Shown here: one piece after another, positions 2,716 to 27,656 of the stretch
Position numbering within the stretch: the first letter of the stretch is position 1
Layout of the letters: the number at the start of each line of letters is the position of its first letter
Source: Candidatus Fusobacterium pullicola
GTDB lineage: Bacteria; Fusobacteriota; Fusobacteriia; Fusobacteriales; Fusobacteriaceae
NCBI GenBank assembly: GCA_018883725.1
Contig: JAHLFN010000073.1
Span: 1 to 36,147, forward strand
Reading direction: 5' to 3'
DNA length: 36,147 bases
The notes under the pieces: model-generated
The model's database searches: none
Seen by the model: only the letters and a program-made list of their open reading frames with translations
Told to the model about the DNA's origin: nothing
Position numbers and translations under genes: made by a program

Positions 2716-3702
2716 ATGAAAAAAACAGCTTTTGATATAGTTATAGAAGAAAGAAAAAAACTGGTTAATAGAATTATTGAAAATATGGAAAAAGGATATT
2801 TTTTTACAAAAAATGGGTGGAGCAACTTAGCTGTTCTTCCACAAAATCCAGTATCAGATCTACATTATAAAGGAGGAAATAGATTTAAATTAATGCTTGA
2901 AGCTATTGATAACAATTATCAAGATCCTCGTTGGTTGACATTTAAACAAGCTCAAGAGAATAATTGGAAAATAAAAAAAGGAGCAAAAGGAATACTATGT
3001 GAAAAATGGATTTTTACAAAAAAAGTAAAAGAAAAAGATGAAGATGGTTTAGAAAAAGAGGTAGAAAAAACTTTATCTAAACCAATAGTAAACTATTTTA
3101 TTGTTTTTAATGCTGAACAAATAGAGGGGATTCCTCCATATTCTAAAACTGTTTTTACTAAAGATGATATATTAAAAACTGTGGATAATTTTATTAAATC
3201 TTCAGAAGTTAAAATAAGAGAAATTGCTCAACCAGAAGCTTATTATTCCCCATCAAAAGATGAAATAGTTCTTCCTATTAGAAAAGCTTTTAAATCAGAA
3301 GAAGCTTTTATGAGAACAACTTTACATGAAATGTGTCACAGTACAGGGCATGAAAGTAGATTAAATAGAGATCAAACAGGGCATTTTGGAACACCAAGTT
3401 ATGCTAAAGAAGAGTTAGTAGCAGAATTAGGAAGTCTATTTACTGAAACATCTTTAGGTTTTAAAATTGAAGGAGAACATTTCAACGATCATAGTAATTA
3501 TTTAAAATCTTGGATTGAAGCATTAAAAAATGACTATAATGAATTATTTAGAGCTTGTTCTGAAGCAGAAAAAGCCTCAAGTTATTTATTAGAAAGATAT
3601 AATGAATATGAAAAAAATAAAGAAAAATCAAATGAAAAAACAAATTCTAAAAAAATAATTAAAAGAAAATCTAAAGACAAAGAAGATGATTTTGAACTAT
3701 AA
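2716..3702 (+). CDS. ArdC-like antirestriction protein with zincin domain and putative export tail
   Basis: The N-terminal half (about 1-140) resembles the ssDNA-binding ArdC_N/DUF1738 domain. The C-terminal half is a zincin-type metallopeptidase with HEMCH at 204-208 and a likely third ligand Glu in KEELVAELGS (231-240). In the literature ArdC of plasmid pSa protects incoming DNA from restriction and is reported to move into the recipient with the transferred strand. Residues 312-328 form a basic-then-acidic tail, KKIIKRKSKDKEDDFEL, nearly the same as the ends of four unrelated proteins encoded between 22.1 and 27.6 kb. I infer a type IV secretion signal. The gene follows topB by 10 bases and is closed by a strong terminator. 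Family call strong; export inferred. Confidence 0.88.
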   Translation: MKKTAFDIVIEERKKLVNRIIENMEKGYFFTKNGWSNLAVLPQNPVSDLHYKGGNRFKLMLEAIDNNYQDPRWLTFKQAQENNWKIKKGAKGILCEKWIFTKKVKEKDEDGLEKEVEKTLSKPIVNYFIVFNAEQIEGIPPYSKTVFTKDDILKTVDNFIKSSEVKIREIAQPEAYYSPSKDEIVLPIRKAFKSEEAFMRTTLHEMCHSTGHESRLNRDQTGHFGTPSYAKEELVAELGSLFTETSLGFKIEGEHFNDHSNYLKSWIEALKNDYNELFRACSEAEKASSYLLERYNEYEKNKEKSNEKTNSKKIIKRKSKDKEDDFEL

Positions 3703-3727
3703 AAAGAGTCTTTATTGGCTCTTTTTT
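3701..3727 (+). terminator. intrinsic terminator after the ArdC-like gene
   Basis: A 10-bp stem AAAAAGAGTC/GGCTCTTTTT (one G-T pair) with a 6-base loop, running into a T tract. It begins inside the stop codon of the ArdC-like gene and closes the topB-ardC operon. Confidence 0.8.
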
Positions 3728-3733
3728 ATACCT

Positions 3734-3811
3734 TTATATTAATCCTTCTTCTCTAAAGCTGAAATAGTTGGTATTATTAACTAATATATGATCTAAGACT
3801 TCTATTTCCAT
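3734..3811 (-). pseudogene. C-terminal remnant of a RadC-family (JAB) protein
   Basis: The minus strand reads MEIEVLDHILVNNTNYFSF followed by REEGLI and a stop. This matches the last part of RadC/UPF0758 proteins (LDHIIIG...YFSFKEEGLL). There is no ribosome binding site and the JAMM residues are absent, so it is a decayed fragment. The RadC-like gene at 22912 has a similar stretch (DHYIIGKGSIFSFKEEGMI), but the fragment looks closer to chromosomal RadC. It probably marks an old insertion or rearrangement point. Confidence 0.5.
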
Positions 3812-3852
3812 CATATGATTTTTAAAATAATAATAATTATTATTAATAAAAA

Positions 3853-3874
3853 AACAAGAGATTTTTCTCTTGTT
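3853..3874 (-). terminator. hairpin with minus-strand T run
   Basis: A perfect 8-bp stem, AACAAGAG/CTCTTGTT, with a 6-base loop. On the minus strand it is followed by a T7 run, so it would terminate a minus-strand transcript. No minus-strand gene lies upstream, so either a short RNA starts in the 3.9-4.1 kb region or the hairpin is a relic. Confidence 0.5.
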
Positions 3875-3882
3875 ACCTTTTA

Positions 3883-4011
3883 GTCCATAAGTCTATAAAA
3901 GTATACTTTTATAGACTATTAGATTTTATACAAAAAACAATAATATTTTAGTCTTTTTTAGTCTTTAAATTATATTTTTTGAAACATAGGTTTTATAGAC
4001 TTATTTGGACT
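3883..4011. repeat. palindrome and AGTC/GACT half-site cluster (candidate res site or operator)
   Basis: A perfect palindrome lies at 3890-3917: half-site AGTCTATAAAAG, centre TATA, then the inverted half-site. Related half-sites follow: AGTCT at 3950 and AGTCTTTAAA at 3960 in one direction, TTTTATAGACT at 3991-4001 and TTTGGACT at 4004-4011 in the other. GTCC at 3883-3886 mirrors the last one. A 28-bp inverted site with a central TATA is the size of a serine-resolvase crossover site, and a serine recombinase is encoded at 5953. The last half-sites overlap the -35 box of the 4005-4034 promoter, so repression is an equally good reading. Confidence 0.5.
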
Positions 4012-4034
4012 TTTTTTAAAAAAAATGCTATAAT
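4005..4034 (+). promoter_or_regulatory. sigma-70-type promoter for the 4.1 kb operon
   Basis: TTGGAC (4005-4010), an 18-base spacer and a perfect TATAAT (4029-4034). The -35 box is embedded in the inverted AGTC/GACT half-sites, which suggests regulation by whatever binds them. Confidence 0.75.
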
Positions 4035-4054
4035 ATTTATGAGAATTGAATTTA

Positions 4055-4076
4055 TTAACTTGAAATGAAAAAGAGG
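4055..4076 (+). repeat. 22-bp leader repeat, copy 1
   Basis: The 22 bases beginning TTAACTTGAAATG and ending AAAGAGG recur exactly at 36025-36046. Here they lie about 20 bases after a TATAAT box, at the start of the expected transcript. Confidence 0.7.
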
Positions 4077-4113
4077 TTTACACTTAACTAATATAGCAGA
4101 GTTGGTGAAATAA

Positions 4114-4347
4114 ATGGGATTTTGGGTATGTAATGAATGTGAAGGTAAATTAAAAATAATTTTAACTGAAATATTGCTTAAAGATTATAATATTGATAAA
4201 AAAGGAAAACCTATCGGAAAATGTTTAAAAAAATCTTTATCAAAAGAATATAATCAAGTAAACTACCATTGTACAAAATGTGGCAGAAGTTATTTTTCTG
4301 ATACTAAGTTAGTAGATGTAGCAAAATGGCAAGAAAAGGAGAGGTAA
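4114..4347 (+). CDS. small zinc-ribbon-like protein
   Basis: A 77-residue protein with CNEC at residues 6-9 and CTKC at 53-56, spaced as expected for a two-knuckle zinc ribbon. No further domain is visible. It is the first gene after a strong promoter, though its ribosome binding site is weak (GGTG about 8 bases before the ATG). The next gene starts 4 bases after its stop, so these are cotranscribed. Function unknown; a small regulator or nucleic-acid-binding protein is plausible. Confidence 0.6.
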   Translation: MGFWVCNECEGKLKIILTEILLKDYNIDKKGKPIGKCLKKSLSKEYNQVNYHCTKCGRSYFSDTKLVDVAKWQEKER

Positions 4348-4351
4348 AAAT

Positions 4352-4585
4352 ATGATTAAGATAAAAGAAATTAGAGTAGAAAAAATTGAAGATATTTTAG
4401 AAAAGCAGAATGAACTTTTAGAAGAAGATGAGAATTATACTTTTAGAATAATTCCTGTATTTCTAACAGGATATTCTTTAGAAGTTTATCTTCCAAAAGA
4501 CTATAAACTATATGATATGTTAAATGGATTTTATAACTCATTTAGAGAAGAAGTTCAAAAATTAGAAGATATAAATAAAAAGTAG
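4352..4585 (+). CDS. small acidic hypothetical protein
   Basis: 77 residues, acidic, mixed alpha/beta in appearance (KIKEIRVEKIEDILEKQNEL then a beta-like middle). No motif that I recognise. It has a GGAGAGG ribosome binding site and lies 4 bases after the zinc-ribbon gene. Confidence 0.55.
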   Translation: MIKIKEIRVEKIEDILEKQNELLEEDENYTFRIIPVFLTGYSLEVYLPKDYKLYDMLNGFYNSFREEVQKLEDINKK

Positions 4586-4608
4586 AACCATAAAATACTG
4601 GAGGAAAA

Positions 4609-5448
4609 ATGGGGTATATATTACATAAAGGAAAAGTTATGCAAATATCAGAGGATAGAAAATATAAAGGTTACTGTTCACAGAACTGCAAATCTTCTTA
4701 TACTTATGATGGACAGAAATATTGTGCACCTTTTTGTGATGAAGCATATAAAAGGTTAGCTGAATGTTATGAAGCTGAAAAACCAATAAAATTTTTAAAA
4801 GAATTTAGTGGTTTTATCAAAACCAAAGAAGAAATAAAAGATGAATATAGATTAAGATGGGGACATCTATATAAATTTAAAGGATTTACCTATAAAAGAG
4901 GAAAAATATTTGTATGTATTATAGGAGAAACTAATAGCAAGGAAGAATATCCTCAAGAATATTTTGATTGGGAAGATTTAGAAGAAAAAGCTAATTTATT
5001 TATGAAAAAAAATATTATCTCTAATAATACTAATAGTGGAGATATTATAGTACAGGGTTCTGTTGAAAAAACTATTATCAATGGAAAAGTTTATAAAGGA
5101 AACAATATAAAAATTTCCAATAATCAAGTATTTGTTGATGGAAAATTAGTCAATGAAGCTCTAAATGATGAAAAAAATATTAAAAAAGACTTATTCCAAG
5201 ATATAGAAGATAGAGGAATAGGATATATAGGAGTATTAGAATCTATTATAAAAGAAATAGAATCATATGGAAATGAAACTATTTTAAAAGAATGTTCTCT
5301 TCCTAATAAAACTTGGGAAGAAACTAAAGAAGAATATATCAGATATTATACAGATGATACTTTTGAAACATATTGGCTATGGACAAGTATAGCTGAATTA
5401 AGTAATAATTTAGCTGAAGCTTTCAGATTAGCTATGAATAACCAATAG
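4609..5448 (+). CDS. hypothetical protein with cysteine-rich N-terminus
   Basis: A 279-residue protein. The first 45 residues hold four cysteines (CSQNC, then CAPFC), which could bind zinc. Residues about 145-185 (GDIIVQGSVEKTIINGKVYK and the following residues) look like a beta-rich repeat with alternating Gly and Ile. The C-terminal 90 residues are predicted helical with Trp and Tyr. A good GGAGG lies before the ATG. No family is recognised. It is the third gene of the operon from the promoter at 4005. The cysteine-rich start and the neighbouring zinc-ribbon protein may point to a shared nucleic-acid role, but that is a guess. Confidence 0.6.
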   Translation: MGYILHKGKVMQISEDRKYKGYCSQNCKSSYTYDGQKYCAPFCDEAYKRLAECYEAEKPIKFLKEFSGFIKTKEEIKDEYRLRWGHLYKFKGFTYKRGKIFVCIIGETNSKEEYPQEYFDWEDLEEKANLFMKKNIISNNTNSGDIIVQGSVEKTIINGKVYKGNNIKISNNQVFVDGKLVNEALNDEKNIKKDLFQDIEDRGIGYIGVLESIIKEIESYGNETILKECSLPNKTWEETKEEYIRYYTDDTFETYWLWTSIAELSNNLAEAFRLAMNNQ

Positions 5449-5572
5449 TAGAAGAGTTAAAACAAAAGGATATAGAATTTATAAGAAATTACTATTTTAA
5501 AAAATTACACCATAGAATTTAAAAAAGGAGAAAAAATGATAATATATTTTTTTATATATATCTGGTTTTTTT

Positions 5573-5911
5573 ATGATGTATATTATTAAATTAGGAAAAT
5601 TAATATTAGAAGAAAATTTTAATTTAAAAAAACTTTTTTCAAAAGAAATACAATTAGATTATATTAAATTGTTAAGTATAATTTTTATTGGAAATATTAT
5701 CAGTAAGAAAAAAGGTATATTTTTAATAAAATCTTTTTTAGAAGATATAATTCAAGCAATATTAATACAAGGATTTTTGCTAGTTTTGTTAGTAATAGTT
5801 TTTAAAATAGTTAAATTAAAACCTTTTAATATACTTTTAGATAGAAGTAATATTCTTTTTTGTTTATTCGCTACAATGCTTACTATATATTTTATACATA
5901 TCTCTTATTAA
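5573..5911 (+). CDS. small hydrophobic membrane protein, possibly frameshifted at its start
   Basis: A 112-residue protein with hydrophobic stretches at about 34-44, 59-80 and 93-110, so probably membrane-bound. Its ATG at 5573 has no ribosome binding site. A good one (AAAAAGGAGAAAAA) lies before an ATG at 5536, but that frame gives only 17 hydrophobic residues (MIIYFFIYIWFFYDVYY). Loss of one T from either T7 tract (5547-5553 or 5566-5572) would join the two into one gene. It may therefore be a slippage-controlled gene, a decaying gene or a sequencing error. Its end is followed closely by the recombinase. Function unknown. Confidence 0.4.
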   Translation: MMYIIKLGKLILEENFNLKKLFSKEIQLDYIKLLSIIFIGNIISKKKGIFLIKSFLEDIIQAILIQGFLLVLLVIVFKIVKLKPFNILLDRSNILFCLFATMLTIYFIHISY

Positions 5912-5952
5912 GAAGTTATTTGATAGAAAAATTATTAAAAAGGATAAATAAT

Positions 5953-6735
5953 ATGAAATATGGTTATATTCGTGTATCAACAAGACAACAAGATGAAACT
6001 AGACAAAGAACAGCTCTTATTTCATCTGGAGTACCTTTAGAAAATATCTTCAGTGATAAAAGTAGTGGTACTACTTTTGTAGGAAGAGAAGCTTGGGAAA
6101 AACTTCTTGCTAAAGTAGTAATAGGAGATATTATTGTAATAAAGGAACTTGATAGACTTGGAAGGAATAATGAAGAAATAAAAAATAATTTTGAATTATT
6201 AGATAAAAAAGGAGTTTATTTAGAGTTCTTAGAACAACCTTTACTCAATACATTTGGGATGAGTAAATTGGAAAGAGAACTTTTACAACCTATTGTATTA
6301 CATCTTCTTGGTTATTTTGCTGAAAAAGAAAATGAAAAAAGGAATATTAGACAAAGTGAAGGATATGCTAATTTACCAAGAGATTCAAAAGGAAGAATGA
6401 TTAGTCGTAAAACTGGTAAACCAGTTGGACGTCCTAGTGCCTTAGATAACTTAACATCAGAACAACGAAGAGCTATCGAATTATTTACAAATTCTCAAAT
6501 ATCTTTAGAAGAATGTATAAAACTTAGCAATCTAAAAAGAGCTACTATTTTTAATATAAAAAAAGCTCTTTTTCCAAGTACTCCTAAAAAAAGCAAAAAG
6601 AAAATTATGACTGAAGATATGAAAAAAAATATTCAACTATGGTTAGATAAAAAAATATCTTTAGAGGAATGTATAAAAAGAACTGGATATAGCCGTTCTT
6701 ATCTATTCAACTTTAAAAAATCAGAAAATAAGTAA
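5953..6735 (+). CDS. serine recombinase (resolvase/invertase family) with duplicated C-terminal helix-turn-helix
   Basis: A 260-residue small serine recombinase. The N-terminus MKYGYIRVST carries the nucleophile S9 with R7, and the conserved KELDRLGRN is at residues 64-72. I start it at 5953, after AAAAAGGA; the longer open frame upstream overlaps the previous gene and does not look like the family. After the catalytic domain there are two copies of a helix-turn-helix-like repeat (about 174-205 and 226-257), both containing ISLEECIK. Family resolvases normally have one such domain. A likely role is resolving plasmid multimers; the palindromic cluster at 3883-4011 is a candidate target. It ends at a terminator shared with the convergent gene. 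Confidence 0.9.
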   Translation: MKYGYIRVSTRQQDETRQRTALISSGVPLENIFSDKSSGTTFVGREAWEKLLAKVVIGDIIVIKELDRLGRNNEEIKNNFELLDKKGVYLEFLEQPLLNTFGMSKLERELLQPIVLHLLGYFAEKENEKRNIRQSEGYANLPRDSKGRMISRKTGKPVGRPSALDNLTSEQRRAIELFTNSQISLEECIKLSNLKRATIFNIKKALFPSTPKKSKKKIMTEDMKKNIQLWLDKKISLEECIKRTGYSRSYLFNFKKSENK

Positions 6736-6760
6736 GGGAAAATTATATTTTCCCTTACTT
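6730..6760. terminator. bidirectional terminator between convergent genes
   Basis: A 13-bp stem, AAGTAAGGGAAAA/TTTTCCCTTACTT, with a 5-base loop. It overlaps the stop codons of the recombinase (plus) and of the convergent minus-strand gene ending at 6755. Confidence 0.8.
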
Positions 6761-7144
6761 ATTTAACATTTTATTTAATATTTCTTTTGTTTCTAATACT
6801 TCTTCAATTTCTTTATCTGTAAGTCCATCAAGTAATTCTTCTAGTTCATTCTCTTGTTTTATTATTTTTTCAATCTCTTCTAATTTTAGCTCATATATTG
6901 AATAACCTTTATTTTTTATTAACTCTTCTAATCTTAATACCTGTTGTACTAAGTCATCATTAGCACAAGCATAATAATTACCTATTCTAAAAAAGTAATA
7001 TTTTTTTTTAAACCATTCACAAAAAGCTATGTTGAAATTTTTTTCTTCCACCATTTCATTAAAAAAACTTCTCAAAATTTCTTCCCTACTTCCTTCTATT
7101 TCTAGCATTTTTTCTGGGTCATCATATAATCTAATATTTAACAT
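6755..7144 (-). CDS. hypothetical protein, paralogue A of a tandem pair
   Basis: A 129-residue protein starting MLNIRLYDDPEKMLEIEGS; the ATG at 7144 follows AAGGAGG. It is clearly related to the next gene upstream (MLNIRLYDDIKRMIEVEGS): both have an N-terminal block of about 85 similar residues (FFNEM[VI]EEKN, then a Trp-Lys-rich stretch) and a long acidic helix or coiled coil at the end. No known family. The leader including the start is a perfect copy of the paralogue's leader, so the pair arose by a recent duplication. Acidic, small and paired: a decoy or antirestriction-like function is possible, but nothing shows it. Confidence 0.6.
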   Translation of the reverse strand: MLNIRLYDDPEKMLEIEGSREEILRSFFNEMVEEKNFNIAFCEWFKKKYYFFRIGNYYACANDDLVQQVLRLEELIKNKGYSIYELKLEEIEKIIKQENELEELLDGLTDKEIEEVLETKEILNKMLNK

Positions 7145-11912: not shown

Positions 11913-11932
11913 AATTTTATCCCTCCTATTTT

Positions 11933-11956
11933 GCAAGGGACAAATCTGTCCCTTGC
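11933..11956 (-). repeat. GGGACA hairpin, copy 2
   Basis: On the minus strand a perfect 10-bp stem: GCAAGGGACA, loop GATT, TGTCCCTTGC. It sits between the stop at 11966 and the ribosome binding site of the gene starting at 11912. Confidence 0.8.
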
Positions 11957-11965
11957 ATTTTTATT

Positions 11966-18318: not shown

Positions 18319-18909
18319 TTATAATAATGTATTTTTCATAATGTTAGCTATATCATCTTCTTCTATTCCAATGTACCTTAATGTAATTTTAGGACTACTA
18401 TGATTAAATGCAATCATAAGTAGTCCTATATTTTTAGTCTTTTTATAAACTGCATATCCCCATGTTTTTCTTAAACTATGAGTTCCTATTTCATATTCTA
18501 TTTTTAAATCTAATTTAGCTTTTCTTAAATATTGAATTACAGCAGAATAAGAAATAGAATTATTTGGATTAAATGAAGATTTAAATAAGAAAGAATTACA
18601 TTTAATTTTCTTACTTTTATAATATTCTTTTAGTTCTTTTATACTTTGCATACACACCTTATTAAAATAAATAACTTTACTTTTACCTGTTTTTATTTCC
18701 TCTATCTTAGCTCGATTTTTATTAACATCTTCAAATTTTAAATTTAGTATATCAGATATTCTCAATCCTGTATTAAGTCCAATATTAAAAATAGACAAAA
18801 TAATTATTTTATTATTATCTCTAAAATATTCTTTTAACCTAATAATATCATTGGAATTAATGTATCTAACTTCTTGTCCTTTTTTATTTCCAGTACTTTT
18901 AATCTTCAT
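18319..18909 (-). CDS. tyrosine recombinase (phage-integrase family)
   Basis: A 196-residue tyrosine recombinase with the full catalytic set: R50 (NTGLRISDIL), K76 (KTGKSK), H144 and R147 (GTHSLRKTWG), H170 (FNHSS) and Y179 (LRYIG). The start at 18909 follows AAAGGAG; the longer frame upstream overlaps a palindrome. Only about 20 residues precede the catalytic core, so the usual SAM-like core-binding domain is missing. Short forms like this occur as invertases and resolvases. It is divergent from virB2, with a 38-bp palindrome between. Likely targets are the repeats at 15439-15509 and 18288/18939, but multimer resolution or DNA inversion cannot be told apart. Confidence 0.85.
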   Translation of the reverse strand: MKIKSTGNKKGQEVRYINSNDIIRLKEYFRDNNKIIILSIFNIGLNTGLRISDILNLKFEDVNKNRAKIEEIKTGKSKVIYFNKVCMQSIKELKEYYKSKKIKCNSFLFKSSFNPNNSISYSAVIQYLRKAKLDLKIEYEIGTHSLRKTWGYAVYKKTKNIGLLMIAFNHSSPKITLRYIGIEEDDIANIMKNTLL

Positions 18910-18931
18910 AAATTCTCCTTTATAGTGTTTT

Positions 18932-18969
18932 AAATAGGTGCATATTTTGTATAAAATATGCACCTATTT
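18932..18969. repeat. 38-bp palindrome between recombinase and virB2
   Basis: Arms of 17 bases (AAATAGGTGCATATTTT and its inverse) around GTAT. It spans the likely -35 box and spacer of the virB2 promoter and includes the right copy of the 20-bp inverted repeat (18939-18958). It may be an operator, a recombination site or a terminator of read-through. Confidence 0.75.
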
Positions 18970-27608: not shown

Positions 27609-27611
27609 GTT

Positions 27612-27635
27612 GCAAGGGACAGATTTGTCCCCTGC
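27612..27635 (+). repeat. GGGACA hairpin, copy 3
   Basis: GCAAGGGACA, loop GATT, TGTCCCCTGC, starting 4 bases after the Fic stop. It is the same element as at 11257 and 11933 and again in the sense orientation. Confidence 0.75.
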
Positions 27636-27656
27636 AAAATAAAATAAATTAGAGAG

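Follow-up and report, generated by a model that had tools for sequence, protein, structure and literature searches.

The window, by which we mean the whole stretch of DNA analysed (36,147 bases, the entire contig C73 of a 1.94-Mb assembly in 87 contigs), carries an operon that includes a serine recombinase gene and, ahead of the operon promoter, a putative recombination site (res) composed of repeated half-sites. Just upstream of res, after a topoisomerase gene, lies an ArdC-type anti-restriction gene (2716-3702; ArdcN and MPTase-PolyVal domains). The elements referred to below are the following.

3853-3874, no strand: terminator-like hairpin directly upstream of res
3882-3886, + strand: extra outer box AGTCC, 8 bp beyond the left end of site I
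3890-3917, no strand: site I, putative crossover site, a 28-bp perfect palindrome with the central dinucleotide AT at 3903-3904
3918-3959, no strand: spacer between sites I and II, 42 bp, constant in length to about 1 base and mostly unconserved in sequence
3921-3925, - strand: extra outer box AGATT (AATCT on the - strand), 8 bp beyond the right end of site I
3950-3954, + strand: extra outer box AGTCT, 10 bp beyond site II on the left; the relative G022 has one too
3960-4001, no strand: site II, inverted half-sites 3960-3973 (rightward) and 3988-4001 (leftward) with 14 bp between them
4005-4034, + strand: predicted promoter, TTGGAC (18-bp spacer) or TGGACT (17-bp spacer), TATAAT at 4029-4034, extended -10 TGC
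4007-4011, - strand: extra outer box (AGTCC on the - strand), 10 bp beyond site II on the right, coinciding with the -35 hexamer
4114-4347, + strand: 77-aa gene with CxxC motifs, the first after the promoter
4352-4585, + strand: 77-aa gene
4609-5448, + strand: 279-aa gene, weak match to phrog_3163
5573-5911, + strand: 112-aa gene, membrane protein-like by eye
5953-6735, + strand: serine recombinase, 260 aa, presumed cognate enzyme
6457-6570, + strand: first HTH of the recombinase, residues 169-206
6613-6726, + strand: second, duplicated HTH, residues 221-258
6726-6764, no strand: terminator-like hairpin, operon end

The preliminary description of this DNA had reported a perfect inverted site followed by two direct AGTCT half-sites and two inverted ones, and all of these are present. 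The 28-bp palindrome, formed by AGTCTATAAAAGTA and TACTTTTATAGACT, is exact at 3890-3917 and is the only ungapped 14/14 palindrome of such size in the window; a perfect palindrome of 28 bp appeared in 1 of 200 dinucleotide shuffles (mean 0.005). Direct copies of AGTCT occupy 3950-3954 and 3960-3964, and the inverted AGACT and GGACT boxes are found at 3997-4001 and 4007-4011. The exact half-site TTTTATAGACT has five copies in the 1.94-Mb assembly, three of them at this site, against 17 for a reversed control pattern, so that a single half-site is not rare whereas the arrangement is. The palindrome also came up in a terminator scan (12 pairs, 3 of them G-C), which could make it the transcription terminator hairpin of the upstream gene. 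We regard this as a remote prospect: its tail, ATTAGATTTT, would give a poor U tract, the hairpin at 3853-3874 already occupies that position, and what is conserved among relatives is the core and its spacing to site II.

When the sites found upstream of relatives of the recombinase were stacked, a second site appeared at a constant distance after the core AAAAGTATACTTTT. The layout in these relatives consists of a 28-bp site I, a 42-bp spacer and a 42-bp site II, about 112 bp in total (plus or minus 1 base in some loci), and the spacing is retained though the sequence of the spacer diverges. In the mean profile of a position weight matrix (PWM) over 13 loci, half-sites stand at 0 (rightward), +14 (leftward), +70 (rightward; z 5.0-5.9) and +98 (leftward; z 8.5-10.2), of which only the last two count as a test, since the matrix was built from site I of the same 13 loci. 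One-base shifts aside, the next peaks were one of z 3.5 opposite the +98 half-site and others of z 2.9 or less. The corresponding positions in the window are 3890, 3904, 3960 and 3988, its right half-site of site II (AGGTTTTATAGACT) falling under the PWM cut used. The half-sites of site II are thus inverted, with 14 bp more between them than those of site I, and the conserved second site comprises 3960-4001 alone rather than all four AGTCT-type boxes. A third dimer site did not stand out in the mean profile of the 13 loci, where a degenerate one is possible.

The same layout, mirrored with respect to the operon, is found in F. hwasookii CP013332. This bears on the idea of an invertible promoter, in which the segment between the arms 3887-3900 and 3991-4004, a 14-nt perfect inverted repeat with 90 nt between its copies, would flip. 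The 13 stacked loci keep the same order and CP013332 mirrors the whole 112-bp site instead of the inner segment, which leaves the likelihood of such a switch close to nil. Another variant was seen in L100 (5101-5298), where two divergent recombinase genes have one common site I and a site II on each side; its core is not palindromic and has a central AA.

The protein encoded at 5953-6735 contains a Resolvase catalytic domain (PF00239, E 5e-21, in a Pfam scan of 10 window proteins) and, in an alignment to Sin and gamma-delta read by eye, retains the residues of the catalytic site (YxRVS, D, R and DRLGR). Its best solved relative is Sin (2r0q_C, E 5.3e-15), with which it aligns over residues 3-203, DNA-binding domain included. 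The relatives of this recombinase that we found belong to the Fusobacteriaceae and Leptotrichiaceae. Among 23 such loci, with 3 kb upstream of the gene examined in each, the exact core AAAAGTATACTTTT occurs in 11, at 147 to 2,097 bp from the gene, and a weaker site-I-like palindrome in seven (G047, G019:C2, AP019838, NC_014634, G041, G006 and the second copy in G003), that of G041 being by itself at chance level and recognised through its likeness to NC_014634. No site could be called at the remaining five (the truncated second copy in G037, CP077120, CP077137, CP056008 and the first copy in G003).

The exact core has 11 copies in the 353 kb of 26 fusobacterial loci, against 0.036 expected by composition, and each copy is the upstream site of a recombinase locus; the loci had been picked for their recombinase genes, and three of the 11 cores come from near-identical Leptotrichia plasmids. 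In the genome to which the window belongs the core occurs twice, in the window and in one chromosomal gene that reads like that of ribosomal protein L13. The latter copy was discarded as a site: it is coding, at the start of the gene, 8/14 palindromic and devoid of a full site, and its existence means that the core alone is not specific. A gapped DNA pattern was likewise abandoned: it gave three matches in 61 genomes of the family, all at recombinase loci, and its reversed control also gave three, so that the pattern alone is not specific and was replaced by the model described next. At 36 loci of distant recombinases from genome and viral collections no exact core was found, which says little, as 0.009 was expected. 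Megablast of 3700-6760 against plasmids gave no match.

A model of the site built from the sequences of 15 sites (R1) was searched in 98 genomes and returned 16 matches at E 1.7e-7 or better, the next one (E 2.3e-4) being the other strand of one of the 16. Eleven of these matches were in the training alignment (G074:C2 as AP019828 and G040:C3 as NC_014634), and those outside it are G069, a near copy of a training site, G040:C2, G041:C2, G076 and G042:C4. The matches lie at close homologues of the recombinase in 13 cases, before short recombinase remnants in two and, in G042:C4, at a place where the listed neighbouring ORFs include no recombinase. Conversely, a full res was found upstream of 13 of the 16 close recombinase loci (E 1e-30 or better) in the 98 genomes. 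The three loci with no full-length match are G078, where the site is absent by both methods, the truncated second copy in G037, and G019:C2, whose recombinase has 35% identity and which has a site-I-like palindrome; the search used stricter filters by which weak matches may be lost. In the window R1 gave a single strong match (6.4e-10; next 8e-4), with a score of 35.5 bits that is below all but two of the 16.

Some sites have no intact recombinase gene beside them. L136 (6000-6112) has a full-length R1 match and, in the list of surrounding ORFs, no recombinase, i.e. an orphan res, and in L134 (5936-6046) and L135 (5849-5959) a chromosomal res precedes a short leftover of the 5' part of a recombinase gene, near ORFs that resemble tyrosine-recombinase fragments.

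The ends of homology between related plasmids were also compared, in gapped alignments and with coordinates taken relative to the site I centre (left end of the site at -14); these junctions belong to relatives and not to the plasmid of the window. The alignment of AP019824 with AP019828, AP019832 and AP019836 runs from -19/-20 rightwards, with 96.8-98.8% identity over 1.5 kb, and the 400 bp to the left are at chance level; that of G072b with AP019836 starts at -9 (94% over 0.9 kb), and that of NC_014634 with G041 at -13 (90% over 159 bp). In these three plasmid comparisons (90-99% identity) homology on the recombinase side starts at or within site I. Alignments among AP019836, AP019828 and AP019832 pass through site I without a break, and between AP019832 and AP019824 likeness resumes 868/439 bp further left. 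More distant pairs (the window and G022, AP019838 and AP019828, and CP053469 and G036 each against G019:C1) start at -8 to -13, where loss of similarity through divergence is an equally good account. A junction at +8 between AP019836 and AP019828, suggested by an ungapped comparison, was rejected: the gapped alignment is continuous, with 97.9% identity over 2,335 bp, and the stretch after +8 is simply more divergent. Crossover at site I would yield junctions of the kind seen, as could other recombination at the edge of a conserved unit.

In the comparison of the window with its nearest relative (G022:C22), 10 alignments longer than 120 bp were obtained, of which the best two are the block of res and promoter (3892-4036, 77.6%) and the recombinase gene (5945-6719, 80.5%), the other eight having 64-72% identity. 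Between these two blocks the window has 1.9 kb without detectable similarity to G022, and the distance from res to the recombinase gene is 0.4 kb with one small gene in G022 and 2 kb with four different genes in the window.

These observations help to weigh the possibility that the boxes, which continue to the promoter and across it, serve as operators, bound either by a conventional transcription regulator or by the recombinase in the role of a repressor only, with no recombination involved. A regulator would leave unexplained both the site I junctions between plasmids that are 90-99% alike on one side and the constant spacing despite a diverged spacer, and the recombinase has retained its catalytic residues; we judge this explanation to be unlikely.

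Assignment of the palindrome to another enzyme of the window, the phage-integrase-family protein encoded at 18319-18963, has also to be considered. Sites of the dif type are 28 bp long, with 11-bp arms and a 6-bp centre, a shape (11-6-11) that the palindrome shares and that would suit an Xer/dif-like tyrosine recombinase in place of the serine recombinase. Nevertheless, site and serine recombinase are both present on the Leptotrichia plasmid AP019838 (complete in L069), which has no tyrosine recombinase among its eight listed genes (an incomplete list) and no tblastn match to that of the window at 1e-15. Furthermore, the tyrosine recombinase gene has a palindrome of its own at its 5' end (18932-18969; 17-bp perfect arms with 4 bp between them), which may be another recombination site or serve as an operator; upstream palindromes, of different sequences, likewise occur at the two homologues found (L067 and L073). 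This assignment is accordingly very unlikely.

Taken together, the two-site layout, its tie to one family of recombinases and the site I junctions in relatives point strongly towards 3890-4001 being the res used by the serine recombinase that the plasmid itself encodes (5953-6735), a two-dimer site that would serve to resolve multimers and from which the operon would repress itself. The preliminary description had already proposed a serine-resolvase crossover site for the recombinase encoded 2 kb downstream, a proposal that the comparisons favor through the presence of res at 13 of 16 close loci, the three junction comparisons and the conservation of site and gene on both sides of 1.9 kb that lack detectable similarity. 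A recombinase dimer would bind the palindrome of site I and cut at its central AT dinucleotide, and a second dimer, seated on the widely spaced inverted half-sites of site II, would regulate the reaction. As the contig yielded one res, the expected substrates are plasmid multimers, which exchange between res copies would convert into monomers; the contig ends do not overlap, which leaves some doubt whether the contig represents a complete plasmid carrying only one res.

The position of the promoter is the basis for the predicted self-repression. It had been described as strong: its elements are there, whereas its strength found no backing in a consensus scan, which gave 24 promoter-like sites in 3600-7000 against a shuffle mean of 24.6. 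As this is chance level, the support for the promoter is comparative. Among 15 loci read, 10 have a -10 beyond site II, at +118 to +120, and the window and G022 have theirs at +139/+140; in the reading of the other three, different hexamers were picked for G037a and G036 (+109 and +114) and the row for G076 came from the wrong place. In those 10 loci the -35, at 17 bp, is TNGACT in seven, TGACCT in two and TATACT in one, and shares bases with the inner end of the right-hand half-site in site II; some of its resemblance to a -35 comes from the half-site motif. For the window and G022, the -35 (TGGACT and TAGATT) is on the extra box outside site II, and the rightmost box of the window (4007-4011) may be nothing more than this hexamer. 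With the -35 overlapping site II in 10 relatives and the extra box in the window, autorepression is likely: bound recombinase should block RNA polymerase at such promoters and, the operon promoter of the window lying directly beyond site II with its -35 on the outermost box, should repress the operon that contains its own gene. The autoregulation proposed earlier thus gains indirect support from the 10 loci, of the 15 read, in which a -35/-10 pair overlaps site II in its right half.

The genes between promoter and recombinase vary. For the four of the window no toxin-antitoxin family gave a match. In relatives this place is taken by zeta toxin genes (CP013332, G047 and G019:C1, the epsilon antitoxin being recognised in G047) or by genes for HipA_C (G036), Fic (G037) and acetyltransferase (G041) proteins.

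A particular feature of the window's recombinase is its second HTH, which among 23 aligned proteins is found only in those of the window and G022 and is 42% identical to the first over 38 residues. A single-sequence AlphaFold model has two three-helix units at 169-206 and 221-258, with ten-residue pLDDT means of 70-96; the catalytic domain of the same model is poor (mean pLDDT 57.9). The recombinase of CP013332 has a different, unrelated-looking extension, and a short HTH fragment was noted in G022:C2. In parallel, the half-sites of the window are accompanied by outer boxes: AGTCC/AGTCT and AGACT/AGATT at 8 bp in site I, and AGTCT/AGTCT and AGACT/GGACT at 10 bp in site II. The box pairs of G022 match these at site I and on the left of site II, its right box lying at 11 bp and not 10, and of the other 11 loci tested none has same-offset pairs at both sites and three have them at one. 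Extra boxes like those of the window arose in 1 of 200,000 random draws, a figure that is only a guide, as the statistic was set up after the boxes had been noticed and bases were drawn independently; G000 and G022 being one lineage, the doubled-box test rests on one lineage. We tentatively suggest, at somewhat less than even chances, that fusobacterial plasmids have a third res design, of two dimers and an accessory site with the wider spacing described above, and that in the lineage of the window the HTH was duplicated and matching outer AGTC boxes were gained, each subunit reading two boxes, with the -35 having moved to the outermost box and repression thereby linked to the second HTH.

Sites of this kind are known, and the layout seen here fits neither of the two best-studied designs, Sin and Tn3, whose geometries are given in the available portions of PMC2428073, PMC2764113, PMC9943657 and PMC12217951. 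As in Sin/resH (and six, the site of the Sin-like beta recombinase), there are two dimer sites rather than three. Sin-like systems also have HU or another bending protein between sites I and II. The available portion of PMC2428073 describes Sin as resolving plasmid dimers at an 86-bp res with a head-to-tail site II; the fusobacterial site differs in its length (about 112 bp), its longer spacer and the inverted half-sites of its site II, 14 bp apart. With the res of Tn3/gamma-delta TnpR, as portrayed in parts of PMC7157771, PMC12217951 and PMC2428073, it shares approximately its length (112 against 114 bp), a 28-bp site I with a central AT, a promoter within the site and, as a prediction here, autoregulation by the resolvase. 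Unlike Tn3 res (sites I, II and III), it has no third dimer site that stands out, its half-site positions do not map onto Tn3 sites II and III, and its surroundings are a plasmid operon. Toxin-type genes adjoin res in some relatives, like the toxin-antitoxin genes beside res in the Tn3 family; according to the accessible text of PMC7157771 the latter pair adjoins site I, whereas the fusobacterial genes, those of CP013332 excepted, are placed past site II, after the promoter and ahead of the recombinase gene, with the same orientation. Larger resolvases of about 310 aa, with about 110 aa extra in a C-terminal extension, appear in the accessible sections of PMC12217951; the window's enzyme resembles them in having extra C-terminal sequence, here about 55 residues that form a recognisable second HTH copy.

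The part of PMC1924603 at hand names a resolvase gene of pFN3 without referring to a res site, and the titles and abstract openings of the open-access matches listed contained neither a described Fusobacterium res nor a matching res design; tandem-HTH resolvases were likewise not found in the open-access literature, as far as its accessible text goes. The geometry of the accessory site restrains resolvases of such size, and structural work, in the portions of the literature available, rests on the Sin and Tn3 geometries. A third geometry, found with unchanged spacing on plasmids as well as chromosomes in the Fusobacteriaceae and Leptotrichiaceae, would offer a natural means of testing how the enzyme is switched on by accessory sites, and in the tandem-HTH member enzyme and site may have changed together. 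Relatives in which toxin genes separate the res promoter from the recombinase gene, for their part, make it testable whether a res-bound resolvase represses neighbouring toxin-antitoxin genes, a question left by PMC7157771 in its accessible text. Elsewhere in the window, two near-identical palindromes (TTGCAAGGGACA...TGTCCC) lie outside large ORFs at 11931-11958 and 27610-27637, 15.7 kb apart.
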